Source of the DNA: Chloroflexota bacterium | Lineage (GTDB): Bacteria; Chloroflexota; UBA11872; VXOZ01 | Assembly (NCBI GenBank): GCA_958295775.1 | Contig: CATQHC010000009.1 | Span: 620,001-684,000, forward strand | Reading direction: 5' to 3' | DNA length: 64,000 nucleotides | Shown: piece by piece, positions 23,819 through 25,740 of the stretch | Position numbering within the stretch: the stretch's first letter is position 1 | Layout: each line of letters opens with the position of its first letter | Notes under the pieces: model-generated | What the model was told of the DNA's origin: nothing | Databases searched by the model: none | The model's input: the letters and a program-made list of their open reading frames with translations, nothing else | Position numbers and translations under genes: made by a program

Positions 23819-24391
23819 CTAGTCGCCTTGGACCGCGGCCTCTAGACGTCGAGCAAGTGAGTCGAAGTCATCGGGACACTTTTCCCGAATCAAACCAACC
23901 TGATGTGCGGCCTCTTCACCCAAGTGCTTTCGACCGCCGCCGAGCGTCTCGGACAAGCCGCGCTGCTCCGCAAGGAGCTCAAAGTATCGCTCTTTGACGT
24001 CTTTCTCCGCACGGACTTCCTTCCAAATCCAATCAGCGGGCAATTCCAGTCCCGCCAGGAGCCAGGTCTCGATTTCTTCCCATGCATTTTCAGCCAGTAG
24101 AACCCATTGACCGCCATAATTCGACTCGAGCGCGTCAAGCTTGCGACGCCTGTGCTCATTATTGTCCCTATCCACACAAAGTATGAATATGTCCATCATG
24201 CCTCTGTAGCGCTCTAAGATTTCTGACACTTGCTGAGGATCCAGTGCTTGGTCGACTCCACGAAGCCTCGGTTCTTGACAAACCCGAACCTTCGCTCTTG
24301 TCTTTCCGAACGACTGAATCAACCGCACAAATATGGGCTTAAGGATGAACTGGTCTTTGAGAAAGTCTTCCGGGATGATGAGGATGTTCAC
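23819..24391 (-). CDS. TOPRIM/DUF4276-like partner of the OLD-type ATPase
   Basis: 190 residues. Features fitting a DUF4276 or RloB-like TOPRIM-type domain are a conserved acidic residue after the first strand (NILIIPED, Glu8), the Asp-x-Asp pair in IFILCVDRDNNE (74-76), and a following ENAWEEIETWLL helix with Glu 106/108. Such domains supply the nuclease part of OLD and PARIS-like systems. The GTG start at 24391 overlaps the end of the ATPase gene by four bases (GTGA), so the two are translated together. The nuclease role is inferred from motifs and partner; the family assignment needs a profile search. Confidence 0.65.
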   Translation of the reverse strand: MNILIIPEDFLKDQFILKPIFVRLIQSFGKTRAKVRVCQEPRLRGVDQALDPQQVSEILERYRGMMDIFILCVDRDNNEHRRRKLDALESNYGGQWVLLAENAWEEIETWLLAGLELPADWIWKEVRAEKDVKERYFELLAEQRGLSETLGGGRKHLGEEAAHQVGLIREKCPDDFDSLARRLEAAVQGD

Positions 24392-25740
24392 ACTCCGCGC
24401 TCTCCATCTTCATCATCCACCTGCGAGAACGCTAGAATATCTTCCATCCAACCGGCCGTGTGAAGTCTCCCCAAGCCCTGGGACTTTCGCAATTCTCTTG
24501 CGTTTGGCAACTCCGCCACTCGGCGGATTACGGCATCTGCCGAGTCCTCGTCACGGTATACAACTGAAGTATTCTCAAAGGTCGTGTCATTGATGAGATT
24601 CAGCACGTCAGGCGAATGCGTGGTGGCGACTACCTGAATCTTCCCCTTTGCGGTTTGGCGTTCGATGAGGTCTAACAAGAGGTGCAGCCGCGCGGGATGT
24701 ATGCCGTTGTCGATCTCCTCAATGAAATAGAGGCCGTCAGCATCCTCGTTCAGCAGCGCAGCCAGCATACCGAGAAAACGCAGCGTGCCATCGGACGCAC
24801 TGTAGGCCGAAATCCTTCTCCCGTCGGCCTCTCGGATTTGGAGGTTTACCCTGCCGTTGAGGTCGACTGGAAACTCCAAGTCACTAACGTCCATTGGCGT
24901 AAGTTCGTGTATCCATGAAAGAAGAACATCTTTGCGCTTTGGATCGGCGCAGATTGCCTCAAGCACTGTGGGAAGATTATCGCCTGAGTCTCCTAGTTTG
25001 ATTGCGCCCGGGAGGGATGGCTCTCGCAGTCGTTCAGGCGAGATTTCCAGAAATCTCAACTTTGCGAATTTCAAGATAAATTCTAGCCATCCCCAACTGG
25101 CCTTCGTGTTATTCCAGCGGTTGTCAGTCAATTCGGTACCATCAATTAGAGACCGTCCCACTTCCTCCAATGGTCCGAGAAGCCGCCTTGGAAGCTGGTT
25201 GAAGACTGGCTGATCCGCTGAAACCTCTACTGATTCCCCAATGTCCGGTAGGTCGATCAGTAGCTTAGAGTCTCGCGGGTGTTGGTGTTTGTCGCCATGC
25301 AGAGATGGGCTGGTTGTATACAATGTGCCGGAAACCAGCGAATCAGATGTTCTTGGATCAGCGGTGAGCGATTCGGCTGCAACCCGAAACCGGCCGCCGC
25401 TTTGCCCATCGCGATGGATTCGAATTGAATAGCGCAGTCGATCCACTTCGTAAAGGGGAAATCTAAACGACTTAATCTCGAATTCAAGAGAAAAGTCACT
25501 GCGTCCAAAGCGCACAATTTCATTGGGAGCGCCGCGTATCGGCTGCCATTCAGCCCCATACTTGCCACCAAATATCTCAGCTAGGGTATAGCCGAGACCA
25601 ATTCCGTGCAAGAGTCGGAACGCATCCCGAATGTTGCTCTTGCCGCTGGCATTTGCGCCCACGATCAACGTAAACGGACCGAGATGGAGTGTCTCATCGG
25701 CGAAGTTCTTGAAGTCGACCAGGCGGAGGGAGGTAATCAT
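24388..25740 (-). CDS. OLD-like AAA_21/AAA_15 ATPase
   Basis: 450 residues of an ABC/SMC-type ATPase with a large insert. It starts ITSLRLVDFKNF, then has Walker A GANASGKSN (about 28-36), an ABC-type signature SASDGTLRFL (about 315-324), Walker B GLYFIEEIDNGIHP (about 336-349), and switch His in VATTHSPDVL. This layout is that of OLD and RecF-like ATPases that pair with TOPRIM nucleases in anti-phage systems. It overlaps the TOPRIM-like gene by four bases, making a compact two-gene unit. ATG 25740 begins the canonical MITSLRL. Confidence 0.85.
   Translation of the reverse strand: MITSLRLVDFKNFADETLHLGPFTLIVGANASGKSNIRDAFRLLHGIGLGYTLAEIFGGKYGAEWQPIRGAPNEIVRFGRSDFSLEFEIKSFRFPLYEVDRLRYSIRIHRDGQSGGRFRVAAESLTADPRTSDSLVSGTLYTTSPSLHGDKHQHPRDSKLLIDLPDIGESVEVSADQPVFNQLPRRLLGPLEEVGRSLIDGTELTDNRWNNTKASWGWLEFILKFAKLRFLEISPERLREPSLPGAIKLGDSGDNLPTVLEAICADPKRKDVLLSWIHELTPMDVSDLEFPVDLNGRVNLQIREADGRRISAYSASDGTLRFLGMLAALLNEDADGLYFIEEIDNGIHPARLHLLLDLIERQTAKGKIQVVATTHSPDVLNLINDTTFENTSVVYRDEDSADAVIRRVAELPNARELRKSQGLGRLHTAGWMEDILAFSQVDDEDGERGV

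Follow-up and report, generated by a model that had tools for sequence, protein, structure and literature searches.

Organization of the locus

The window (the whole stretch of DNA that was analysed, 64,000 nucleotides) contains two adjacent genes, here called A and B, whose reading frames share four nucleotides (Table 1). This arrangement predicts translational coupling. The original prediction of a two-gene unit, in which the stop codon of an ATPase gene overlaps the GTG start of a 190-residue protein, was confirmed at the coordinates given. The neighbours of the pair were identified by sequence as a Rieske-type gene and an iron alcohol dehydrogenase gene.

Table 1. Coordinates of the A–B gene pair and its principal motifs within the window
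Feature	Position	Strand	Remarks
Gene A, OLD/SMC-type ABC ATPase, PDC-M07A-like	24388..25740	minus	450 aa, ATG start
Gene B, divergent DUF4276-superfamily TOPRIM-like protein (predicted)	23819..24391	minus	190 aa, GTG start
4-nt overlap GTGA, A stop (TGA) inside B start (GTG)	24388..24391	minus	from sequence
A, Walker A, GANASGKS, residues 28-35	25636..25659	minus	alignment of 20 relatives
A, ABC signature, SASDGTLRF, residues 314-322	24775..24801	minus	same alignment; columns nearly all invariant
A, Walker B and catalytic Glu, LYFIEEID, residues 337-344	24709..24732	minus	alignment of 20 relatives
B, Glu8, end of strand 1, TOPRIM motif 1	24368..24370	minus	invariant in both B alignments; model strand 2-7
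B, Asp74-x-Asp76, end of strand 3, TOPRIM DxD	24164..24172	minus	model strand 68-74
B, Glu106-x-Glu108-x-Trp110 helix	24062..24076	minus	invariant in 20-member B family alignment

A is an OLD/SMC-type ABC ATPase

A search of Pfam with A returned AAA_21 (8e-32). The Walker A (GANASGKSN), signature (SASDGTLRF), Walker B (LYFIEEID) and H-loop (TTHSPD) motifs are all intact, and they are among the most conserved columns of the 20 aligned relatives. An AlphaFold (AF2) model of A (pLDDT 81) matched the heads of SMC, Rad50 and PtuA as well as the OLD nuclease 6p74, with Z scores of 18–21 for the heads and 17.6 for 6p74. The description of A as an OLD-like ATPase with intact Walker A, signature and Walker B motifs was thus borne out by the Pfam result, the structural comparison and the alignment.

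B is predicted to be a divergent DUF4276-superfamily protein

Searched alone against the Pfam, NCBIfam and PADLOC models, B gave no match. hmmscan with DUF4276 (PF14103) detected weak similarity in 5 of the 20 B family members (best 5e-4), the window protein not being one of them. Comparison of the B profile with 27 DUF4276 proteins using hhalign yielded a match of 96.9% with an E-value of 1.6e-10 over 183 columns. Glu8, Asp74, Asp76, Glu106 and Glu108 are invariant throughout the 20-member family alignment, and in a joint alignment of 24 proteins, comprising B relatives and DUF4276 proteins, Glu8, Asp74 and Glu108 are invariant and Trp110 is nearly so. The profile–profile match and the joint alignment support the proposed DUF4276-like identity with its TOPRIM-type acidic set, and on this sequence evidence we classify B as a divergent member of the DUF4276 superfamily (PF14103).

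The AF2 model of B (pLDDT 90) has the order strand–Glu8–helix–strand–helix–strand–DxD–helix–strand–helix, which is that of TOPRIM domains. Structural comparison matched the model to the OLD TOPRIM domains 6nk8 (Z 8.4) and 6njx (Z 7.4) over ~160 residues, with unrelated lumazine synthases scoring equally; because of this tie, the model makes a TOPRIM fold likely for B, short of proven. The TOPRIM-type protein of the original prediction is therefore upheld in its acidic set and secondary-structure order, and OLD nucleases are not the only structures that its fold matches. Foldseek found no match of the model in the PDB at E<=0.001 and nothing significant in a viral library, and sequence searches of the PDB with B or DUF4276 profiles identified no true relative. 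HHalign of B alone with the OLD TOPRIM, RloB and DUF4435 profiles, which are shallow templates, gave no match. A merged B and DUF4276 profile placed the Glu and DxD residues in register with those templates at a probability of only 8–42%, which we count as weak support.

A and B are linked across bacterial phyla and can reside in Hma operons

Homologues of the two genes are neighbours elsewhere, as established by a co-occurrence check that searched one genome per species: 21 loci with a B relative were found, and in all 21 A lies directly upstream of B with the identical 4-nt overlap. These loci are labelled Latescibacterota, Gemmatimonadetes, Binatia, Chloroflexota, Acidobacteria and several proteobacterial groups. 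A pair with the same overlap is also carried by one cyanobacterial plasmid, the only plasmid occurrence found, and two more distant pairs were identified; phage and viral contigs yielded no relatives. Exceptions to intact linkage are L112 (5718-7650, another genome of the phylum), in which B lacks residues 17-114, and L162, in which A is present and B is not detectable. As all 21 loci have the linkage with the same overlap, and same-genus copies differ far more at synonymous than at non-synonymous sites, the association of A with B is not due to chance.

Hma is a candidate defence system of 26 phyla (PMC8565338). It is classed among the BREX-related systems, in which OLD-ABC proteins with TOPRIM or PIN nucleases are proposed to be back-up suicidal effectors; a 2026 report describes TOPRIM-linked OLD-ABC modules within BREX-related (Hma) loci (PMC12839542). 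At 5 of the 21 loci (L009, L011, L012, L013 and L018), the A–B pair has HmaB (methylase) on one side and HmaC (DUF499 ATPase) on the other. An HmaC fragment is found directly downstream of B in L008, HmaB fragments are found directly upstream of A in L024, and fragments of both genes flank the pair in L112. Most loci have no trace of Hma, and a search of the flanks of the window copy found no Hma remnants. The statement that no defence gene is adjacent hence holds for the window and fails for several relatives, where the pair is inside an Hma operon. Two of these operons have additional genes: in one, B is separated from HmaC by a gene for a STAND/NACHT-like NTPase of 395 aa (L009:6613-7800), and in the other, an inserted cytosine methylase gene plus a restriction-type GHKL-ATPase gene separate HmaB from A (L011:1678-4723).

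Comparison with known and candidate defence systems

A PADLOC search with A ranked PDC-M07A first (1e-67, full length), followed by HEC-01A (1e-37) and AriA (1e-34). HEC-01, an Hma-embedded PADLOC candidate consisting of an ATPase and a DUF4276 protein, resembles the window pair in the order of its genes (ABC ATPase, then DUF4276 protein) and in its conserved E, D and E-x-W columns, and window-type pairs can likewise be embedded in Hma. Of 29 DUF4276 genes taken from the window's phylum, nearly all are preceded by a gene for an OLD-type ATPase, and representative ATPase–DUF4276 pairs of the phylum are HEC-01A plus HEC-01B in PADLOC. However, A matches PDC-M07A more strongly than HEC-01A, and the HEC-01B profile does not match window B and matches 7 of 20 relatives only weakly (1.4e-3).

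The PADLOC candidate PDC-M07 combines an ATPase with a PIN-like protein, PDC-M07B. It shares the ATPase type with the window pair, A being recognized as PDC-M07A, and PDC-M07A genes often have the same 4-nt overlap with the gene downstream. The difference is in the partner, which is DUF4276/TOPRIM-like in the window pair; the PDC-M07B profile had no match at E<=10 in B or 19 relatives. True PDC-M07B adjoins other PDC-M07A genes and has PIN-like motifs, with Pfam PIN_12 reaching only E 0.1. By sequence, then, the window pair joins an M07-type ATPase to a DUF4276-type partner, and neither the PDC-M07 nor the HEC-01 definition appears to fit it. Several PDC-M07A-like ATPases (L134, L135, L137, L138 and L143) have no recognizable adjoining nuclease and are solo or have other partners.

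PARIS is a pair composed of AriA (OLD-ABC) and the TOPRIM tRNase AriB (PMC12409363), in which detection of a phage antirestriction protein by AriA activates AriB (PMC12409363, PMC12839542). It resembles the window pair in having a split ATPase and TOPRIM-type partner with the motif order Glu...DxD, but A matches AriA just as a general ATPase. Neither AriB nor DUF4435 matched the 20 B members at E<=10 (hhalign 0.3% for DUF4435), and RloB (PF13707) had no match among them (hhalign 0.2%). An ABC ATPase plus a TOPRIM-type acidic site is also common to RloAB, Gabija and single-chain OLD. The window genes differ from RloAB in the lack of an RloB match, from Gabija in being separate ORFs rather than a fused GajA with no GajB helicase among their neighbours, and from single-chain OLD in not being fused. 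The OLD-ABC/TOPRIM back-up modules of BREX and BREX-related (Hma) loci, as described in PMC12839542, belong to the same class, TOPRIM- or PIN-linked; the main text of that source does not name the window clade, which is also widespread without Hma.

These profile searches agree with the view that the partner is unlike those of OLD, PARIS and Gabija: B cannot be assigned to AriB, RloB, Gabija or single-chain OLD. The proposal of a distinct split system is borne out only in part, and the pair does not stand entirely apart from what is known: ATPase plus DUF4276 is already the candidate HEC-01, the ATPase type is already PDC-M07A, and OLD-ABC/TOPRIM modules in Hma loci have been reported (PMC12839542). 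The names PDC-M07, HEC-01 and DUF4276 did not appear in the literature searched; HEC is defined in a preprint (10.1101/2024.01.29.577857).

In trees with RloA-type or other outgroups, A groups with PDC-M07A and not with the DUF4276-linked ATPases (support 97/86 and 86/98). A three-group ATPase tree, being unrooted, cannot by itself show sister groups; with their long branches, the trees with more groups or outgroups lend moderate support to an exchange of partners.

The pair is under purifying selection in its genus and was probably lost in one genome

Within the window's genus the pair is present in 4 of 6 genomes, and it was found in none of the 55 other genomes searched nearby. The same site, between the Rieske-type and iron alcohol dehydrogenase genes, holds the pair in G000 (the window's genome), G001, G002 and G004, B being frameshifted in G004. 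In G003 the site is empty and consists of a 252-base spacer. Both flanking proteins identify G004 as the nearest relative of G003 (91%); since G004 still has the pair, albeit with B frameshifted, the pair was likely lost in G003. B is damaged and A intact in both broken copies (G004 and G155), and these two independent cases fit B as a costly effector.

Among same-genus copies, dN was 0.22–0.28 for A and 0.12–0.34 for B, with dS values, which are near saturation, above 1.2 and 1.5, respectively. The pair is under purifying selection in this genus. A search of five genomes of the genus found HmaC in none, so that the pair endures in this genus without Hma; in three of the five it is intact and under purifying selection. 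Identity between G000 and G001 is 69% for A and 58% for B, compared with 84% and 75% for the neighbours, and the pair therefore diverges faster. Its G+C content is 53% versus 64–65% in the neighbours, and its codon fit is poorer than that of 13 window genes. Window B is 58% identical to its same-site, same-genus counterpart and 62% identical to a Latescibacteria copy (L047), and the reverse is seen for window A (69% and 56%); B may have recombined or changed rapidly in the window's lineage.

Proposed function

Several observations favour a role in phage defence: the linkage with its constant overlap, the superfamily, invariant residues and TOPRIM order of secondary structure of B, the complete motif set of A and the similarity to PADLOC candidates, together with the Hma embedding, patchy presence, empty site, frameshifted B, low G+C content and poor codon fit. 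The published PARIS pair (PMC12409363) and the BREX-related OLD-ABC/TOPRIM modules (PMC12839542) favour it as well. We count against this reading that no defence gene adjoins the pair in the window, that B has no significant PDB or OLD/RloB/DUF4435 match, that relatives were found on one plasmid and in no phage or virus, and that Cran1 provides a non-defence precedent (PMC12796447). In our analysis, A and B quite probably constitute a coupled two-gene phage-defence module of the kind that combines an OLD-ABC ATPase with a TOPRIM-like nuclease.

The most likely form of such a module would be abortive, either stand-alone or Hma-embedded, with A sensing infection and licensing B. These sensor and effector roles are proposed by analogy with AriA and AriB of PARIS. 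We infer that A and B form a complex that responds to a trigger, that B is a nuclease whose substrate is nucleic acid (RNA or DNA), and that the pair confers phage resistance. A would dimerize via its Walker A and signature motifs, as in other SMC/OLD heads, and would hold B inactive in the resting state. An infection cue, e.g. a phage antirestriction protein or changes in nucleotides or DNA, would shift the ATP state of A, which would then release or activate B. B would bind metal via Glu8, Asp74 and Asp76 (with Glu106 and Glu108) and cleave nucleic acid, halting phage replication at a cost to the cell. In the window the module would act by itself; within an Hma (type-1 BREX-related) operon it would serve as a back-up.

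An unlikely alternative is that the pair serves Hma as an accessory and is not a system of its own, such that solo copies, including that of the window, are leftovers of lost operons. The five loci with an intact pair between HmaB and HmaC and the debris adjoining it in L008, L024 and L112 are what this explanation predicts, but most loci have no Hma trace, and selection has kept the pair intact in genus genomes devoid of HmaC. It is very improbable that the genes have a housekeeping role in DNA repair or chromosome maintenance as a RecF/RecR-like ATPase with a TOPRIM partner. The archaeal OLD-family protein Cran1 is a cell-cycle factor, and the OLD family is thus not devoted entirely to defence (PMC12796447); this precedent, the resemblance of A to SMC/RecF heads and the fixed position of the pair within the genus would all suit such a role. 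Most relatives nevertheless lack the pair, the G003 site is empty, B is broken in G004 and G155, G+C content is low, and the pair can be embedded in a defence operon.

We consider it equally doubtful that the genes form a toxin–antitoxin-like addiction module in which A restrains the toxin B without specific anti-phage action. The strict overlap and coupling would be expected of such a module, as would damage to a costly B with A intact in both broken cases, but the occurrence of the pair inside Hma operons, together with the sensor architecture of the ATPase, speaks for use triggered by infection. By sequence this explanation is hard to tell from abortive defence.

If the pair is a defence module, it is a compact and widely shared one that would be likely to escape catalogues whose definitions demand both genes of PDC-M07 or both of HEC-01, since a known sensor type is joined to a different nuclease. 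There is about an even chance that the PDC-M07A-type ATPase lineage swapped its nuclease partner (PIN-like versus DUF4276/TOPRIM), and that the TOPRIM branch both lodges in Hma operons and outlives them as a system in its own right. It would then be an embedded defence module that outlasts its host operon, and one sensor type with either a PIN-like or a TOPRIM-like effector would provide a natural comparison in which trigger and effector are separately testable. The window's genome also contains two further ATPase–DUF4276 pairs of other subfamilies (L113:4992-6790 on G000:C5 and L114:6275-8207 on G000:C3), which together with the window pair amount to three ATPase–DUF4276 modules in one genome.
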